Source: Actinomycetota bacterium
GTDB lineage: Bacteria; Cyanobacteriota; Vampirovibrionia; Obscuribacterales; Obscuribacteraceae
Length of the DNA stretch: 11,575 nucleotides
Direction: 5' to 3'
Assembly: GCA_903970355.1 (NCBI GenBank)
Contig: CAJCIF010000197.1
Location: 1 to 11,575 of the forward strand
Shown: one piece after another, positions 524-8,707 of the stretch
How positions within the stretch are numbered: position 1 is the first letter of the stretch
Layout of the letters: every line of letters starts with the position of its first letter
The notes under the pieces: model-generated
What the model was told of the DNA's origin: nothing
Database searches by the model: none
The model's input: only the letters and a program-made list of their open reading frames with translations
Position numbers and translations under genes: made by a program

Positions 524-1186
524 TTAAGCGCTCTTTGAGACGATGTGCTCAGGATTTAGGACGCTGGCGATAACCATATCGATGGTTTCCCTCGTGTGCC
601 TTTCCTTCATTTCATCGCTCATTAAGTCCGTGCCTGCCGGCCAAAGGCTGCGAACGTTGTTGTATGAGGTGTAGTAAAAGACGCACATTCCAATGACGTT
701 TACAGCGGTTTGCTCGGGATCCAATTTTCGAAAATGCCCCGATTCAATACCGCGTTTCAATATATCTATTACTGGAGTATAGGTGACAGCCACGAACATA
801 TCGGTGTAAAAGCGGCCTTTGTTCTGCATCGACTCAAAGAGAAAAATCGGTGGCACTTTCGGACTGTCCTTTGCGTGCCTCATGAACATTTTCAGATAAC
901 GCCCGAGAGCTTCAACCGGATCAACCGATTGCAGATCGACCTTTTGCAAAGCCAGTAGTCGTTTGGTTACCGATCGGTCTAGAACCGCTCTGTAGAGACC
1001 TTCTTTATCGCCAAAATGATAAAATATCATCGCTTTTGTCACGCCTGTGTTCGCTGCAATTGCTTCCGTGCGAGCTCCCAGGAGCCCGGCGCGAGCGAAC
1101 TCATCTTCAGCAGCGTCCATGATGCGATTCTTTGTGGCATCTGAGTCGCGCGAAGGCGGGTTTGATTTTCGAATTGCTGTTGTCAT
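524..1186 (-). CDS. TetR/AcrR-family transcriptional repressor, probable regulator of the adjacent RND efflux operon
   Basis: The 220-aa product has the length and layout of the TetR/AcrR family. An N-terminal three-helix DNA-binding domain (about 18-65) contains TKNRIMDAAEDEFARAG and the helix-turn-helix with its tail, TGVTKAMIFYHFGDKEGLY (47-65), a typical family signature. It is followed by an all-helical ligand-binding and dimerisation region that is poorly conserved in the family, so the inducer cannot be read. The gene is divergent from the pump operon, 175 bp apart, with two copies of a palindromic motif between them. This is the usual arrangement of a local repressor released by a pump substrate. 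The start ATG at 1186-1184 lacks a clear Shine-Dalgarno sequence. Family assignment is seen directly; control of the pump is inferred from context. Confidence 0.92.
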   Translation of the reverse strand: MTTAIRKSNPPSRDSDATKNRIMDAAEDEFARAGLLGARTEAIAANTGVTKAMIFYHFGDKEGLYRAVLDRSVTKRLLALQKVDLQSVDPVEALGRYLKMFMRHAKDSPKVPPIFLFESMQNKGRFYTDMFVAVTYTPVIDILKRGIESGHFRKLDPEQTAVNVIGMCVFYYTSYNNVRSLWPAGTDLMSDEMKERHTRETIDMVIASVLNPEHIVSKSA

Positions 1187-1204
1187 TTTATGTCGAAAAT
1201 TAAC

Positions 1205-1219
1205 TTACCAAACGATTAG
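1205..1219. promoter_or_regulatory. Candidate degenerate TetR operator upstream of the tetR-like gene
   Basis: TTACCAAACGATTAG matches the better operator at 1318-1332 (TAACCGACCGGTTAG register) at 11 of 15 positions. It lies 19 nt upstream of the repressor start codon, where binding would give autorepression. It is a poor palindrome by itself, and the call depends on similarity to the second site. Confidence 0.4.
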
Positions 1220-1297
1220 TCTACCAAGCCTCATGGATTCCTGTCAAATGCTTCTTTGGTTCTGCTGGCGGTCATCTGTGGTCATTGACAAATGCAG

Positions 1298-1303
1298 TAT
1301 AAT
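1298..1303 (+). promoter_or_regulatory. Candidate -10 box of the RND efflux operon promoter
   Basis: A perfect TATAAT lies at 1298-1303, with the putative start near 1310, immediately before the operator at 1315-1336. A consensus TTGACA at 1285-1290 is only 7 nt from it, so the two cannot be one promoter. The -35 at proper spacing (about 1275-1280) is weak, as is common for activatable or repressed promoters. TTGACA could instead pair with CTAAAA at 1308-1313 (17 nt spacing). Confidence 0.4.
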
Positions 1304-1314
1304 GTATCTAAAAT

Positions 1315-1336
1315 TAATTAACCGACCGGTTAGTTA
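1315..1336. promoter_or_regulatory. TetR-type operator of the RND efflux operon
   Basis: The core TAACCGACCGGTTA (1319-1332) has two perfect 6-bp arms, TAACCG and CGGTTA, around a 2-nt centre. With one mismatched pair the symmetry extends to 1315-1336. Palindromes of this ACCGACCGGT type are well-known targets of TetR-family repressors that control efflux and detoxification genes. The site lies just downstream of the candidate -10 box, where binding would block transcription of the pump genes. Confidence 0.65.
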
Positions 1337-1361
1337 GGAAGAAGCAAGCACTACCGATTTT

Positions 1362-4300
1362 ATGTGGATTGTCGAACTAGCTCTGAGAAAGCCCTACACA
1401 TTCGTAGTGGTATCACTACTAATTGCTCTTTTAGGCGTGCTTTCAATTACTAAAATGCCAACGGACATTTTTCCGTTCATCAATACTCCTGTCGTTAGCG
1501 TTATCTGGACTTATACCGGCTTGCCCGCTCAAGAGGTGGAGTCGCGCATGGTGTGGATTTCTGAACGCGCTATGACGACAGTTACAGCCGACATCGAACA
1601 CCTTGAGTCCAAATCACTCAATGGTCTAGGTGTTATCAAAGTGTTTTTGCGTCAGGGTGTCGATCTCGGTAAAGCCGTAGGTTTGATGAGTTCCATCAAC
1701 CAAACGATCTTGAAGGTTTTGCCGCCTGGCATAACGCCTCCACTTGTGACTTCCTACAGTGCTTCCGATGTGCCTATTATGCAATTGGGTGTTGATAGCC
1801 CAAATATGACCGAAGCGGAACTTTATGACTGGGGGCTGAATTTCGTTAGAACGAGATTGGCGACGGTTGGTGGTTGTTCGGTGCCATTACCATATGGTGG
1901 CAAGCAACGGGAGGTGATGGTGGATATAGACACCAATCAACTCTATGCAAAAGGATTATCGCCAAACGATATAACTACCGCTCTTAATGCTCAAAACGTC
2001 ATTCTGCCGGCGGGAACGGCAAAGATTGGCACTAAAGAGTATCCGGTAAAAACAAATAGCAGCCCACTCGAACTTGCCGCGCTAAACGACCTGCCGGTTA
2101 AACAAGTGAACAATGCCAGCATCTATTTAAAAGATATTGGCTTTGTGCATGATGGATTTGCCACCCAAACAAACATTGTGCGGATCAACGGTCATAAGTC
2201 CACTCTATTAAATGTCTTCAGGAGCGGTTCGGCATCGACGCTTACAGTGGTTCAAGGTGTAAAAGACGTTCTTCCCGCACTACTGCAAACATTGCCGAAG
2301 GACTTGCGAATCGAGATTCTTTCGGACCAATCGATATTTGTGAAAAACGCAGTTCACCAGGTTGTAAGTGAGGCAGTCACGGCAGCCGGTTTAACTGGTT
2401 TGTTGATGTTGGCTTTGCTCGGTGATTGGCAAAGCACTTTGATTGTTGCGGTTTCCATTCCACTTTCAATTTTGGCCTCGATCATTATGATGGGCGGCTT
2501 GCACGAAACGTTAAACACAATGACATTAGGTGGGCTAGCTCTTGCAGTGGGGATGCTCGTTGATGACGCGACTGTGGAAGTTGAAAATATCCACCGCAAT
2601 ATGGCAAGCGGCAAGCCCTTGCACGATGTCATTCTTATGAGTGCTCAACAAATTGCCACTCCCGCTTTTGTCTCCACCATATCCATATGTATTGTTTTTG
2701 TCCCGGTTGTTCTTCTTACCGAACCAGCAAAATCGCTCTTTGTGCCCCTGGGAATGGCGGTGGTATTCGCCATGCTTGCCTCTTATTTTCTTTCGAGAAC
2801 GCTTGTTCCGGTAATGGCTCTCTATCTGTTGCCGAAAGACCACCATGCCGCCGGAGGCGCACATGCGCCTAAACCGGGCTTTTTCAAGAAGATCCATTAT
2901 TGGATTGACAACAATTTCAATAAGGCAAGAGATTCATATCACGGCGTTCTGGATAAGGCGCTTAAAGCACGGGGATTTGTTATCCTCGGATTTTTGGCTT
3001 TTTATGCATGTGCATTTTGTCTCATTCCTTTCATAGGACAAGATTTCTTTCCGGCCGTTGATGGTGGTGCATTACGCCTGCATTTGATTGCTCCGGCAGG
3101 TTCTCGTATAGAAGAAACAGACAGAATGTTTAATCGGGTCGACCGCGCCATTAGAACCATTATTCCGCCTAACGAAATAAAAGTGATAACGGATAACATC
3201 GGATTGCCGACAAGTGGTATCAATCTTGCTTTTGGCGACAACATCACCTTTAGTGATTTCGATGGAGAAATGTTGATTACGCTTACGGAAGAGCGCAAGC
3301 ACTCAACCTTCTATTATCAAAAGGCTATTCGTAATTACTTGAATAAAAATATGCCTGAAGTGACTTACTTCTTCCAATCTGCCGACATTGTTGGACAGAT
3401 ATTGAACGCCGGTCTACCTGCACCAATTGACATTCAGGTGACCGGGCGCAATAGAAAAGATAACTACAAACTAGCATTGGATCTGCGCAAGAAGATTGCC
3501 CTTGTGCCGGGGGCAGTGGATGTCACCTTGCTTCAGGTTCCCAATTTGCCACAGTTGAATGTTGATGTCGATCGCACAAAAGCTTTGCAGCTTGGTCTTC
3601 GCCAATCTGATGTGGCAAACTCTTTGCTAACCTCATTGAGTTCGAGTTTCCAGGTTCAGCCTAACTATTGGGTTAATCCTCAAAACGGTGTCAACTACTA
3701 TGTAGCTGTGCAAACGCCAACATACAAAATTAACTCAACCGATGATATTTCTAATTTGCCCATCACTTCTCCGAAATTGAATAAGCCTGAATTACTCACA
3801 AACTTAGCAAAAATAGGACGCAGCACCACAAGTGCGATCGTCAGTCACTACGCAATTCAGCCGGTGTACGACATCTACGTAAACACCCAGGACAGAGATT
3901 TGGGTGGTGTCACTGAGGATATTCGTAAAGTTGTTGATAGCTTCAAAAAAGAAGTTCCACGCGGCACGTTCGTACAAATAAGAGGGCAAGCTGACAGTAT
4001 GAACGCTGCCTTTAGCGGACTTCTGAGCGGGCTTGTTTTCGCCTTGATTCTAATTTACCTGTTGCTGGTAATAAACTTTCAGTCCTGGCTTGATCCGGTC
4101 ATTATCTTGATGGCAATTCCAGGAGCCTTCGCCGGCATTGTGCTCATGCTATTTGCCACTCAAACAACGCTAAGTGTGCCCGCTTTAATGGGCGCGATCA
4201 TGAGTATTGGTGTTGCATCCTCCAACAGTATCTTGATGGTGACCTTTGCAAACGAAAAACAAGAGGAAGGGCTCGATCTAATTGAGTCTGCCTCTCAAGC

Positions 4301-4556
4301 CGGATATACTCGTTTCCGACCGGTCATCATGACAGCCACCGCTATGATTATTGGTATGCTGCCAATGGCAACCGGTTTGGGCGAAGGTGGCTCGCAAAAC
4401 GCACCGCTCGGTCGCGCAGTTATCGGCGGATTACTTGTAGCAACAACTGCAACCCTTTTATTCGTACCGTTAGTTTTTACGATGCTAAAGAGAAAGTCGA
4501 AATCCTCTCAAAAGCAAGAGTCTTCTGGGCAAATGCCTAATGCACCTGCTACATAG
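1362..4556 (+). CDS. RND-family multidrug-type efflux pump, inner-membrane permease (AcrB/HAE1-like)
   Basis: The 1064-aa product is full length for an AcrB-type RND permease. It starts with a short cytoplasmic helix and TM1 (about 12-30). Two large periplasmic loops (about 31-330 and 560-880) hold the pore and docking domains, and two blocks of membrane helices lie at about 332-490 and 885-1042. TM4 carries the motif GLALAVGMLVDDATVEVENIHRN, with the proton-relay pair Asp401-Asp402 matching AcrB Asp407/408. In TM10 the segment SIGVASSNSILMV puts Ser954 where AcrB has Lys940. The product is expected to expel substrates by proton antiport, working as a trimer with the adaptor encoded 18 nt downstream. 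Transcription is probably repressed by the divergent TetR protein. The start ATG lacks a close Shine-Dalgarno sequence (AGGAAG is about 20 nt away), but MWIVELALRKP is a normal start for this family. Substrate is unknown; CzcA-type metal signatures are not evident. Confidence 0.95.
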   Translation: MWIVELALRKPYTFVVVSLLIALLGVLSITKMPTDIFPFINTPVVSVIWTYTGLPAQEVESRMVWISERAMTTVTADIEHLESKSLNGLGVIKVFLRQGVDLGKAVGLMSSINQTILKVLPPGITPPLVTSYSASDVPIMQLGVDSPNMTEAELYDWGLNFVRTRLATVGGCSVPLPYGGKQREVMVDIDTNQLYAKGLSPNDITTALNAQNVILPAGTAKIGTKEYPVKTNSSPLELAALNDLPVKQVNNASIYLKDIGFVHDGFATQTNIVRINGHKSTLLNVFRSGSASTLTVVQGVKDVLPALLQTLPKDLRIEILSDQSIFVKNAVHQVVSEAVTAAGLTGLLMLALLGDWQSTLIVAVSIPLSILASIIMMGGLHETLNTMTLGGLALAVGMLVDDATVEVENIHRNMASGKPLHDVILMSAQQIATPAFVSTISICIVFVPVVLLTEPAKSLFVPLGMAVVFAMLASYFLSRTLVPVMALYLLPKDHHAAGGAHAPKPGFFKKIHYWIDNNFNKARDSYHGVLDKALKARGFVILGFLAFYACAFCLIPFIGQDFFPAVDGGALRLHLIAPAGSRIEETDRMFNRVDRAIRTIIPPNEIKVITDNIGLPTSGINLAFGDNITFSDFDGEMLITLTEERKHSTFYYQKAIRNYLNKNMPEVTYFFQSADIVGQILNAGLPAPIDIQVTGRNRKDNYKLALDLRKKIALVPGAVDVTLLQVPNLPQLNVDVDRTKALQLGLRQSDVANSLLTSLSSSFQVQPNYWVNPQNGVNYYVAVQTPTYKINSTDDISNLPITSPKLNKPELLTNLAKIGRSTTSAIVSHYAIQPVYDIYVNTQDRDLGGVTEDIRKVVDSFKKEVPRGTFVQIRGQADSMNAAFSGLLSGLVFALILIYLLLVINFQSWLDPVIILMAIPGAFAGIVLMLFATQTTLSVPALMGAIMSIGVASSNSILMVTFANEKQEEGLDLIESASQAGYTRFRPVIMTATAMIIGMLPMATGLGEGGSQNAPLGRAVIGGLLVATTATLLFVPLVFTMLKRKSKSSQKQESSGQMPNAPAT

Positions 4557-4574
4557 GAGTACAGAGGTCCTAAT

Positions 4575-5963
4575 ATGGAAACTATTGAAGTTCCAACTAC
4601 AAACAACTCACAGCCAACTCCCAAGCGACGCAACGTACTCAAGGGTGCTGCGAATATGTATGTCATTTTGCCCATCGTCATCTTCGCTACGGTCGTTGCG
4701 ATAGGGGTCATACCGAGAGTCCAACGCGGTACAGAACTGAATAAAGTTCACGAAGCACTGGCAACAAAAATCCCGGAGGTTAACGCTGTAAAAACCGCGC
4801 CGGCAGATTCGAAAACGACGTTGCTCCTACCCGGTGATATTCAGCCGATTCAAAACATTCCGATCTATGCTCGCGCTGACGGCTACATATTGAAACGATT
4901 TGTGGACATCGGCGATATCGTTAAAAAGGGAGATTTGCTGGCGATTATCGACACTCCTGAATTGGATCATCAACTCGAACAAGCAAGAGCAGATTTGCGT
5001 ACAGCCGAAGCGAATCTAACGACAGCCCTTGCCGACCGCCAAAATTATGCTGCTCAATTGTTTTCGGCCCAGGCAACCATCAAGCAATCTCGCACAAATC
5101 TTGAATTTAGCAATGTAGAGTACAAACGGTATCAGGATCTTGCTATTCAAGGTGCAATTTCATATGAGCAACGCGATCAAACTCTAAAGCAATACAATTC
5201 GGATGTTGCTGCTCAACAAGTTGCGCAAGAAAATGCAAAAGCGGCACTTGCACAAACGGTCTCTGCTGATGCAAGAATTGCAGCTGCCAAGCAATCGGTT
5301 GAATCAAGTCAAGCCAATGTTGAACGCATAAGAGCATTGCAAAATTTCAATCGAGTCATTGCTCCTTCAGATGGGGTTATCACAAATCGATTGGTTGATG
5401 CAGGTGCTCTAGTTGCAGCGGGCGGCTCTCAAGGAACAACTGAATTGCTTGAGATGGCGCGCACGGATATGCTGAGAATTTATGTGGATGTTCCGCAAAG
5501 CGATTACCGATTCATTCATAACGGTGATAAGGCCGATATTATTCTGCAAGAGTTTCCGGGCAAAAAATTTGTGGGAACAGTAACCAATCTTGCCGGCAGC
5601 TTGAACTCTAATTCGAGAACTCTACAAACAGAACTGCGAATCCAGAACCAGGAACATGTCCTGCGTCCAGGGTCCTATGCTGATGTGCGTTTTGTCTTCA
5701 ACCAACCTAGCCCACCGCAGGTGATACCAAACAGCGCTGTGGTGACAAGGAACGATGGCTTGTATGCATATGTTGTTAATGACGGGCATGTGAAATTCCA
5801 GCCAATTGAAGTGGCGCGAGATTACGGGAATCGAGTTGAAGTTGCTCGTGGACTGGCGGCAAACAATGTAGTTTTGCTAGATCCACCAGACACATTGCTT
5901 GATGGCGATGAAGTTCATCCCAAAATAACCGAACCCAAGAAAGAGCCGGAGAAGCAAAAATGA
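4575..5963 (+). CDS. Periplasmic adaptor (membrane fusion protein) of the RND efflux pump, HlyD/AcrA-like
   Basis: The 462-aa adaptor would link the inner-membrane pump to an outer-membrane channel. A cytoplasmic tail is followed by one membrane anchor (about 28-46). The first lipoyl half contains YARADGYILKRFVDIGDIVKKGDLLAIID (about 98-126). A long Gln/Ala-rich helical hairpin (about 131-255) follows, then the second lipoyl half (VIAPSDGVITNRLVDAGALV, 261-280), a beta-barrel (about 286-375) and a membrane-proximal domain (about 380-450). The tail is Lys/Glu/Pro-rich. The anchor is a true transmembrane helix, because no lipobox cysteine is present. The gene starts 18 nt after the permease, with GAGG about 10 nt before its ATG, and its stop overlaps the next start (ATGA). 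Permease-before-adaptor order is the reverse of acrAB. N-terminal extension and anchor match adaptors of many environmental RND operons. Confidence 0.93.
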   Translation: METIEVPTTNNSQPTPKRRNVLKGAANMYVILPIVIFATVVAIGVIPRVQRGTELNKVHEALATKIPEVNAVKTAPADSKTTLLLPGDIQPIQNIPIYARADGYILKRFVDIGDIVKKGDLLAIIDTPELDHQLEQARADLRTAEANLTTALADRQNYAAQLFSAQATIKQSRTNLEFSNVEYKRYQDLAIQGAISYEQRDQTLKQYNSDVAAQQVAQENAKAALAQTVSADARIAAAKQSVESSQANVERIRALQNFNRVIAPSDGVITNRLVDAGALVAAGGSQGTTELLEMARTDMLRIYVDVPQSDYRFIHNGDKADIILQEFPGKKFVGTVTNLAGSLNSNSRTLQTELRIQNQEHVLRPGSYADVRFVFNQPSPPQVIPNSAVVTRNDGLYAYVVNDGHVKFQPIEVARDYGNRVEVARGLAANNVVLLDPPDTLLDGDEVHPKITEPKKEPEKQK

Positions 5964-6580
5964 AAACGCAATTTAAGCTTGCGATTTCATCCGGTTTGTC
6001 ATTGTGCACAACTTTACTTTGCAGCATCGATGTGAATGCTGATGTCCCTTCGCAAAGACCAGACCCAGCAGTCTATCAAACCTATTTGAAATCAGGTTCT
6101 GATGTTGTTCGCGACCGAAATTCCGGGACGTTCCAATTGCAGATACAGACTCGTGACAAAGTGAATAAGGCCTTAAGCAGCGGAGCCATTTCTGCAGACG
6201 AAGCCGCTCGGCTCAATACTGAAATAGATGACGTCAATGAAAAGGAAATGTGGTACCGCACTGGTGCTGACGATGTTCCTCAAACCGTAACTGATGAAAG
6301 CAGAAGGCGCCTTAACGAAATAAGTCAGACAGTAGCAACCAAAATACCTAAACAATCTGGAACGATCTTACCGGCGCAGGATCACATCGCAATTCACAAG
6401 GCTATATCCGACGCATTCGCGAAAAAGAAGATTACAAATGACGAGGCCACGAAATTTTATTCAGACTTAGCCCAGATCGAAGCAGATATGGAAGCTCTCC
6501 AAAACGATCCCGCTGCATCGCCGAAGGATACGAACGAGCTGAATCAAAAATTGGCAAACCTGCGTAAACACATCCCGTAG
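5960..6580 (+). CDS. Exported small helical protein with two internal repeats, third gene of the efflux operon; function unknown
   Basis: The 206-aa product has a Sec signal peptide (cleavage likely after Ala27, VNA-D); the LLC in it does not fit a lipobox. I do not recognise the family. Two similar units are visible. Unit A (about 64-127) contains DKVNKALSSGAISADEAARLNTEIDDVNEKEM followed by a short helix with RRRLNEISQTVATKI. Unit B (about 143-204) contains IHKAISDAFAKKKITNDEATKFYSDLAQIEADMEAL followed by NELNQKLANLRKHI. Each is a pair of helices around an 'aIsxdEA' turn plus a third helix. The start ATG overlaps the adaptor stop (ATGA), so translation is coupled and the protein is probably made together with the pump. 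It may be a periplasmic accessory or sensor of the pump, but this is inference from position. It is far too short to be a TolC-type outer-membrane channel. Confidence 0.8.
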   Translation: MKTQFKLAISSGLSLCTTLLCSIDVNADVPSQRPDPAVYQTYLKSGSDVVRDRNSGTFQLQIQTRDKVNKALSSGAISADEAARLNTEIDDVNEKEMWYRTGADDVPQTVTDESRRRLNEISQTVATKIPKQSGTILPAQDHIAIHKAISDAFAKKKITNDEATKFYSDLAQIEADMEALQNDPAASPKDTNELNQKLANLRKHIP

Positions 6581-7349: not shown

Positions 7350-7742
7350 CTAGTCCTTATGTTTTGTCACTTTCTTCGTTTTGAGATTGACGTCGTAAAA
7401 TCCGAAAGTTACTTCGTGTTCCGGCATGTCTTCCAAAACGTGCACCACATAAATTTTGCCATAATGCTGTTCAATGCGCCAGGCAGGTCGACCTTCTGTT
7501 TTGGGATTCGTGCCGTTTGGTCCTTTGAATTCGCTCAGCCATTGTTTGACATCGTTCTCTTTATTAACAAGATTGATTGCTTCGTCTTCCGATTTCGCAG
7601 CCTCTTGTTCGGCTTCGGTTTTGGTTGGCGACTTGGTTGCTGGTGCCTTGGTTGCTGGCGATGATTTACCACTTTCATTGGCGAGCGACACTTGGCTGGT
7701 TATTAAACCAGCAACAAGAACAATGAAAATTCGAACTGGCAT
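7350..7742 (-). CDS. Small exported protein with a PepSY-like C-terminal domain; function unknown
   Basis: The 130-aa product begins with a Sec signal peptide (about 1-21, cleavage after SLA). A Lys/Thr/Pro/Ala-rich linker (about 24-50, repeated PATK units) follows, then a compact domain (about 53-127). That domain ends GKIYVVHVLEDMPEHEVTFGFYDVNLKTKKV, a run of beta-strands with the 'Y.V...(D/N)..T..V' rhythm of PepSY-like domains, which often occur in secreted regulators or inhibitors. The match is weak and given as a resemblance only. The ATG follows the TGA stop of the upstream gasdermin-like gene with no gap (TGAATG), so the two are almost certainly translationally coupled. Role with its neighbours is unknown. 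Confidence 0.75.
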   Translation of the reverse strand: MPVRIFIVLVAGLITSQVSLANESGKSSPATKAPATKSPTKTEAEQEAAKSEDEAINLVNKENDVKQWLSEFKGPNGTNPKTEGRPAWRIEQHYGKIYVVHVLEDMPEHEVTFGFYDVNLKTKKVTKHKD

Positions 7743-8474
7743 TCACGCTACCGCTACCGGTTCGGGAACGGCATCTGGCAGTAAATCAAATTCAATAAAT
7801 TGGCCGCGTTTCAGATTGAGCGTTTCGGATAGATTCTCCGGCAAATGTCCATTCTTTTCCAATTTGATCAAATGGAACACAATGGCGAACACGAGCGGGT
7901 CACCACTATCGATTTCGAGATTCGACTCGCCGCCAAGTATAGTTATCTTTGAAGTGCTATAGGTCGTTGTCACCACATATAGTTCTTCTTCCAAATTGCT
8001 ATTGCCCAGATGTTTGTAATCGGCTTTCGTAAAATCGAAGCTCTTGCCTTTCATGGCTCTTTCGAGATAGCTTAGATCCACAGTGCGTTTTGTTACAGGT
8101 TGACCTAACTCAATGGAAACTCTTTCTTCGGCTGAGAGCTTCTTGGAAATTTTATCGGAAGTTTCCGGAAGCATTTCATTAAGGAATGGCTTTGCCACGG
8201 CAACGGCTTCAGTACCGTTGAGTATCCGGGTTCGGAATCCGGTTTGCGCTGGCGGTGCCACCATACTTGAAGTAATAGATGGCAACGAGATGAACTCGAA
8301 CGCTGACCTTAAGCAACCAATCGGAACCAGACTACTATTACTCGAACTCATTGAGTAGAGTTGGAATGGCTGAACGTGAGGGCGTGGCGCGTGCACAGGC
8401 ACTGCCTTAAACTCTTCGCGAATCAGATTGTCGAGGGGATCTTCGTTTTTGCATGGTAGTGAAATGATAGGCAT
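7743..8474 (-). CDS. Gasdermin-like pore-forming protein candidate (bacterial gasdermin, bGSDM-like)
   Basis: This 243-aa protein has no signal peptide or membrane helix. Its pattern resembles bacterial gasdermins, which are latent cytoplasmic proteins that form large membrane pores after a protease removes a short C-terminal peptide. Visible points, from memory of the family rather than an alignment: an early strand with 'hxxhPxPxxxxxPhxLh' (FKAVPVHAPRPHVQPFQLY, 22-40); GFRTRILNG (79-87); RVSIEL (118-123) before TVDLSYLERAMKG (131-143); an acidic turn leading to EEELYVVTTTYSTSKITIL (162-180); and PLVFAIVFHLIKLEKNG (193-209). Length fits. Cys8 could be the N-terminal palmitoylated cysteine found in studied members, and the last residues (FDLLPDAVPEPVAVA) could be the inhibitory tail. 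No protease is encoded next door, which is unusual. A strong AGGAG lies before the ATG. It heads a three-gene leftward operon. It could also be an unrelated beta-rich family. Confidence 0.45.
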   Translation of the reverse strand: MPIISLPCKNEDPLDNLIREEFKAVPVHAPRPHVQPFQLYSMSSSNSSLVPIGCLRSAFEFISLPSITSSMVAPPAQTGFRTRILNGTEAVAVAKPFLNEMLPETSDKISKKLSAEERVSIELGQPVTKRTVDLSYLERAMKGKSFDFTKADYKHLGNSNLEEELYVVTTTYSTSKITILGGESNLEIDSGDPLVFAIVFHLIKLEKNGHLPENLSETLNLKRGQFIEFDLLPDAVPEPVAVA

Positions 8475-8707
8475 AAGCTCTCCTCGCGGGCGAATAGCGA
8501 TCCTAGACCGCCGTCCGGGTGGTCTTGAGTGATTCCTTCGCCTTTATATTAGCTTAGCAATTCCCTCATGTGAGCATGGAATTTGAGTTTCGACAAAAAG
8601 CTTGATACTACGAATCTTAGAGATTTTTCAAAATCTGTGCTGTTAAACTTATTACCGCAAAACTAATTCGTACCTTATAACTGCCTTTTTGATCGGGTAA
8701 TTAAGCA
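8475..8707. other. Divergent intergenic region between the gasdermin-like operon and the IPT/TIG gene
   Basis: The 233-bp spacer must hold the promoters of both divergent units. Leftward elements are the AGGAG ribosome site (8480-8484 region), the inverted repeat at 8505-8525 and the AT-rich TAATATAAA box. Rightward, TATAAC lies about 30 nt before the IPT/TIG gene without a convincing -35. The AT-rich stretch 8580-8700 holds no recognisable gene or structured RNA. Confidence 0.4.
8505..8525 (-). promoter_or_regulatory. Inverted repeat in the leader of the gasdermin-like operon
   Basis: On the minus strand the arms AGACCACC and GGCGGTCT (one wobble or mismatch) enclose a 5-nt loop, about 31 nt before the start codon and upstream of the AGGAG ribosome site. 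There is no following T-tract, so it is not a classical terminator. It could be an RNA leader hairpin or a protein operator. A possible -10 region, TAATATAAA (8551-8543), lies just upstream, which would place the repeat right at or after the transcription start. Confidence 0.4.

Follow-up and report, generated by a model that had tools for sequence, protein, structure and literature searches.

The 11,575-base contig CAJCIF010000197.1 (assembly GCA_903970355.1), analysed in full and referred to here as the window, encodes a 243-amino-acid protein that is best explained as a divergent representative of the gasdermins, a superfamily of proteins that kill cells by perforating their membranes. According to this explanation, the protein retains the N-terminal cysteine, the 'palm', the first membrane hairpin and the C-terminal tail of bacterial gasdermins (bGSDMs), and probably possesses a single membrane hairpin. 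Taken as a whole, mechanism included, this explanation is given an even chance of being correct; its components are supported to different degrees, as set out below.

Gasdermin homology of the 243-amino-acid protein

A search with the PADLOC bGSDM model matched residues 8-179 of the protein (E=2.6e-13). Residues 1-100 (E=3.9e-5) and 100-180 (E=4.3e-5) each matched this model on their own and in collinear order, while the reversed protein, included as a control, gave no match to it. In a second library, the NCBIfam equivalog NF051890 (prok_gasdermin) matched residues 21-179 with E=7e-7 and 29.2 bits, which is under its curated cut-off of 100 bits. Among 14 control genomes, the PADLOC model returned no match at limits of 0.001 to 0.01 and a match in one (Corynebacterium glutamicum) at a loosened limit of 0.1. 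Since two profile libraries match and the reversed protein is not matched by PADLOC, the likeness appears to go beyond chance, and gasdermin homology is regarded as highly probable on these sequence comparisons. The sequence-only reading, which had proposed a divergent bacterial gasdermin from sequence rhythm alone, therefore named the right family.

Conversely, no match was obtained in a Pfam-A scan of the protein, nor was a gasdermin matched by phmmer against the PDB. A HMMER profile built from four bGSDMs did not report the protein at E values up to 10 among 2000 shuffles, and hhalign against the narrow four-sequence bGSDM alignment returned a probability of 0.1%. The HMMER comparison with gasdermin profiles, which the earlier reading had named as a check, was thus positive for PADLOC, below the cut-off for NCBIfam and unsuccessful for the narrow profile. 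Because the narrow profile fails and the broad profiles match, the protein appears to be remote from cyanobacterial-type bGSDMs while fitting the family at large. The missing Pfam and PDB matches and the hhalign failure favour a protein that is not a gasdermin at all; this is considered very improbable in view of the PADLOC E value, the two collinear halves, the second library and the empty reversed control, and Pfam-A was equally blind to three undoubted bGSDMs that were scanned. The protein is classified here as a homologue of gasdermins, rather than as a canonical bGSDM or the NCBIfam equivalog.

For comparison, L026, L027 and the truncated L003 were retrieved with the bGSDM model from genomes of the same phylum, and L005, a 318-amino-acid protein on a Gloeothece plasmid, was retrieved by tblastn with L003. 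These four proteins scored 145-231 bits against the bGSDM model, and the 243-amino-acid protein was 16-19% identical to them in a five-sequence alignment. The Cys8 column was invariant in this alignment, so that the cysteine which the earlier reading had placed near the N-terminus is present and aligns with the conserved N-terminal cysteine of bGSDMs.

Several features of these comparison loci were observed in their own right. The Gloeothece verrucosa plasmid protein (L005:7998-8954; WP_013334731.1) carries a hypothetical annotation and is clearly a bGSDM, at 213.9 bits. The bGSDM of L027 (251-2949) comprises 482 amino acids with a long C-terminal extension that resembles an M15-type peptidase by eye, without a Pfam match, and it lies shortly after an open reading frame (ORF) with YkuD and glucosaminidase domains; a gasdermin may therefore be both fused to and located beside cell-wall enzymes. 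In L026 (260-3316), the bGSDM ORF (1492-2322) is accompanied by a phage-lysozyme ORF (PF00959; 2783-3316), with transposase-like ORFs on the other flank. The L003 protein (1492-1947) stops after ~140 matching residues, before hairpin 2, and looks truncated; it is followed by a pentapeptide-repeat-like ORF.

Probable loss of the second membrane hairpin

According to excerpts of PMC12547243, the transmembrane hairpins of gasdermins correspond to beta3-5 and beta7-8, and are preformed as beta-alpha-beta motifs in bGSDMs. Canonical bGSDMs were found to contain a strand resembling YVVTxxxxSNxFxVxA, followed after ~40 residues by a strand resembling LVFGFKAxPLWIE; by our own placement, from sequence order, the stretch between them would represent the second hairpin (beta7-8). 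The spacing between the VVT-like anchor and the conserved F is 24 residues in the 243-amino-acid protein, compared with 53-56 in L026, L027, L005, 7n51, 7n52 and 7n50, which suggests that hairpin 2 is gone. The loss of most or all of this hairpin, judged from length and register, is considered somewhat more probable than its retention.

By eye, the hydrophobic segment PLVFAIVFHLIKLE is similar to the core strand LVFGFKAxPLWIE. In total, 47 residues follow the conserved F, compared with 48, 53 and 48 in 7n50, 7n51 and 7n52, respectively, as counted by hand from their chain numbering; the corresponding numbers for L026 and L005 are 61 and 79. As this length is close to that of the solved bGSDMs, the shortening would be located at hairpin 2, provided that PLVFAIVFHLIKLE represents the following strand. 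Should this assignment be incorrect, it is the C-terminal end that would be partly missing, because there is no room for both in 64 residues.

The alignment-based AlphaFold model is weak, with a predicted local distance difference test score (pLDDT) of 43.3. It contains strands 165-181 and 184-203 joined by a tight turn, with no alignment row from residue 193 onward. Among PDB entries, gasdermins ranked first as matches to this low-confidence model, without significance, and the second Foldseek rank was taken by 8jyy (fungal RCD-1; E=0.96). The model comparison that the earlier reading had suggested thus returned gasdermins as the best structural matches, although from a weak model and short of significance. 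Along with the strands of this model, the VIA-align comparison favours the PLVFAIVFHLIKLE assignment, presuming that entry numbering equals chain numbering: its last pair placed residue 201, five residues after its own F, at five residues after F in 7n50 and 7n52, and at six residues after F in 8sl0 and 9a84.

Several results weigh against a gasdermin with one hairpin, beginning with the phmmer, four-bGSDM and hhalign searches described above. The last 64 residues (180-243) had no PADLOC bGSDM match, and the profile of the post-hairpin segment was not significant, with 766 of 5000 shuffles scoring as high (33 of 5000 for the pre-hairpin segment). In 7n51, the best structural match, the last aligned residue was 255, off the PLVFAIVFHLIKLE register. 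The model is weak overall, with pLDDT below 50 at Cys8 and at the C-terminal tail, and hairpin 1, which is present in alignment A7, is unusually charged (14 of 43 residues, compared with 8 of 42, 8 of 42 and 11 of 45 in relatives).

Some of these results would also fit an ordinary pore-forming bGSDM in which hairpin 2 is present but unrecognisable (e.g. at residues 184-230), the shortening having affected the C-terminal end. Such a protein would account for the unmatched residues 180-243 and for the non-significant profiles of both segments, post-hairpin and hairpin-2 (1518 of 5000 shuffles as high for the latter), and a single-sequence AlphaFold model (pLDDT 34.2) predicted a helix at residues 193-207. 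Given the resemblance of PLVFAIVFHLIKLE to the core strand and the pairing of this strand with residues 165-181 in the alignment-based model, an ordinary bGSDM is considered improbable.

C-terminal tail, proteases and possible mode of action

Bacterial gasdermins are kept inactive by a short peptide at the C-terminus together with a palmitoylated N-terminal cysteine, and a neighbouring protease cleaves them behind a Leu or Arg ~20 residues from their end (excerpts of PMC10989679, PMC9612521 and PMC12547243; PMC9079055). The tail following the last core strand of the 243-amino-acid protein is similar in length to that of solved bGSDMs, in line with the short tail described earlier, while pairwise tail alignments were equalled by 374, 358 and 722 of 1000 shuffles. 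A possible cleavage site, Arg223-Gly224, is found at a distance of 20 residues from the end, and such a dipeptide is also present in 1106 of 20000 shuffles.

Scans of 11 window proteins revealed no recognisable peptidase family, and no linked trigger for the gasdermin-like protein was found there. A search of the same genome for caspase-like (PF00656) and CHAT proteases located three loci of the former kind and one of the latter on other contigs (L083, L084, L085 and L086); further genes may be missing, as genome completeness is 65.7%. Separately, L083 was observed to have a long N-terminal repeat region that is TPR-like by eye.

A latent effector with an unlinked protease is proposed because no peptidase was recognised on the contig, proteases occur elsewhere in the genome and the neighbouring 130-amino-acid gene (see below) is unlikely to be a partner. 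In this proposal, the protein would remain latent in the cytosol, its C-terminal tail and possibly an acylated Cys8 keeping it closed, until the tail is removed by a protease whose gene lies elsewhere, perhaps through cleavage at Arg223-Gly224. The freed core would then bind the inner membrane and damage it, either with a single hairpin from each subunit or only with the help of a partner, and this damage would be the last step of a suicide response. Whether the protein damages membranes is judged to be evenly balanced. A single-hairpin gasdermin with an unlinked protease, forming either a barrel with two strands per subunit or acting as a membrane protein that makes no pore, is put forward tentatively. 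Of the earlier designation as a latent pore-forming protein, the gasdermin homology is thus upheld, while pore formation is questionable in view of the apparent absence of the second membrane hairpin.

The main rival is a pejvakin-like gasdermin that forms no pore and instead has a membrane-binding, sensing or regulatory role, or is decaying. The short hairpin-2 region, the charged hairpin 1 and the lack of a recognised protease on the contig would fit this proposal, and pejvakin illustrates that gasdermins can lose pore formation (excerpt of PMC8742441). It is nevertheless considered unlikely: no regulatory partner was found, and the intact frame, native codon usage, retained N-terminal cysteine and near-normal tail speak against decay.

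Genomic locus and neighbouring genes

The gasdermin-like ORF, which had been reported earlier without its strand, starts with ATG and is located on the minus strand (Table 1); the plus strand read from position 7743 contains many stops. Its codon log-odds, trained on the window neighbours, were +0.10 in its own frame, similar to those of the neighbours, and negative in the other five frames. Together with the ribosome-binding site (RBS)-like GAGGAGAG, these values make the ORF look like a real gene. The earlier description of its product was borne out by position for Cys8, AVPVHAP, QPFQLYS, ERVSIEL, DLSYLERAMKG, EELYVVTTT, PLVF and the tail LPDAVPEPVAVA, and a signal peptide, said to be absent, was not seen by eye in the protein.

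Table 1. Positions of the gasdermin-like gene, its predicted parts and the adjacent gene in the window
Feature	Position	Strand	Basis
Gasdermin-like coding sequence, 243 amino acids	7743..8474	minus	PADLOC and NCBIfam profile matches; codon usage
RBS-like GAGGAGAG ahead of the ATG	8478..8485	minus	Read from sequence
Cys8 codon	8451..8453	minus	Aligned with palmitoylated Cys of bGSDMs; lipidation suggested by reviews
bGSDM-profile-matched part, residues 8-179	7938..8453	minus	PADLOC bGSDM match
Hairpin-1 region, residues about 80-124	8103..8237	minus	Alignment A7
Short link GESNLEIDSGD at expected hairpin-2 site, residues 182-192	7899..7931	minus	Anchor spacing; tight turn in low-confidence model
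PLVFAIVFHLIKLE, putative core strand after hairpin 2	7857..7898	minus	By eye; AlphaFold strand 184-203
Arg223-Gly224, possible (weak) cleavage site	7803..7808	minus	20 residues from end
C-terminal tail, candidate autoinhibitory peptide	7746..7805	minus	Position and length only; reviews
ORF of 130 amino acids, N-terminal signal-like stretch (by eye)	7350..7742	minus	Starts at the base after the gasdermin-like stop

The adjacent 130-amino-acid gene is likely to be co-transcribed with the gasdermin-like gene, judging from their arrangement, and encodes a small, apparently secreted protein to which the scans assigned no function. Half of the family genomes searched (25 of 50, its own included) contain relatives of this protein, in varying gene contexts, which makes a partnership with the gasdermin-like protein unlikely. 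Furthermore, none of 19 loci around such relatives (flanks up to 1.5 kb) contained relatives of the gasdermin, PRTase or TIG proteins, although the 130-amino-acid gene itself fell under the threshold of that search in 4 of the 19 loci. A role as a dedicated partner was therefore rejected. A conserved island was likewise rejected, as ten regions upstream of IspG in relatives contained none of the nine window proteins used other than IspG itself.

Downstream of the gasdermin-like gene, the contig extends for 7.7 kb, and upstream of it for 3.1 kb. The window IspG shares 74% identity with its counterpart in the nearest relative from the same family, so that the contig fits this lineage. Positions 524-6580 hold an ordinary efflux operon, in which a TetR regulator gene is oriented divergently from the genes of an RND efflux permease and its periplasmic adaptor, followed by a 206-amino-acid ORF.

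Distribution

Relatives of the 243-amino-acid protein were found in one of 60 genomes, namely its own, and no close relatives were detected in the plasmids, phages and viral contigs searched. The sole genome-contig match (L004) was rejected, as it lies in a helix-turn-helix ORF and reflects a word match arising by chance. Surveys with the bGSDM model were confined to genomes of the same phylum, in overlapping samples, and yielded matches in 2 of 386 genomes of the phylum, 1 of 382 of the class and 1 of 53 of the order, with the present genome representing one match in each; none of the other 52 genomes of the order was matched. In another class, 3 of 388 genomes were matched, and in one order of that class 2 of 42.

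Comparison with known gasdermins

Excerpts of reviews, PMC12547243 among them, describe bacterial gasdermins as two-hairpin pore formers that usually have a linked protease. No bacterial gasdermin lacking a hairpin was recognised among the titles returned by searches of a paper library, and a member with a short hairpin may already be present in the supplements of the primary bGSDM papers. If correct, a one-hairpin homologue would show how much of the gasdermin machinery is needed for membrane attack; alternatively, bacteria too would have gasdermins that form no pores. Either way, the family would be placed in an order in which the other genomes searched have no match.

Like the solved bGSDMs from Vitiosangium (7n51, 8sl0), Runella (7n52) and Bradyrhizobium (7n50), the 243-amino-acid protein is small, matches the family profile over residues 8-179, has an N-terminal cysteine and a similar tail, and lacks a large C-terminal domain. 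It differs from them in having ~30 residues fewer at hairpin 2, in scoring under the NCBIfam cut-off and in the lack of a recognised protease beside its gene. With the cyanobacterial-type proteins L026, L027, L003 and L005 it shares the family model and collinearity in alignment A7, whereas identity is low, hairpin 2 is full in L026, L027 and L005, and their profile misses the protein. Fungal RCD-1 is likewise gasdermin-like without an observed proteolytic step (excerpt of PMC11760362), yet it acts as a heterodimer of two alleles, and no partner gene was found beside the gene described here. Vertebrate pejvakin, likened here by description and not by sequence, is a gasdermin without pore formation (excerpt of PMC8742441), a property that the present protein may share.
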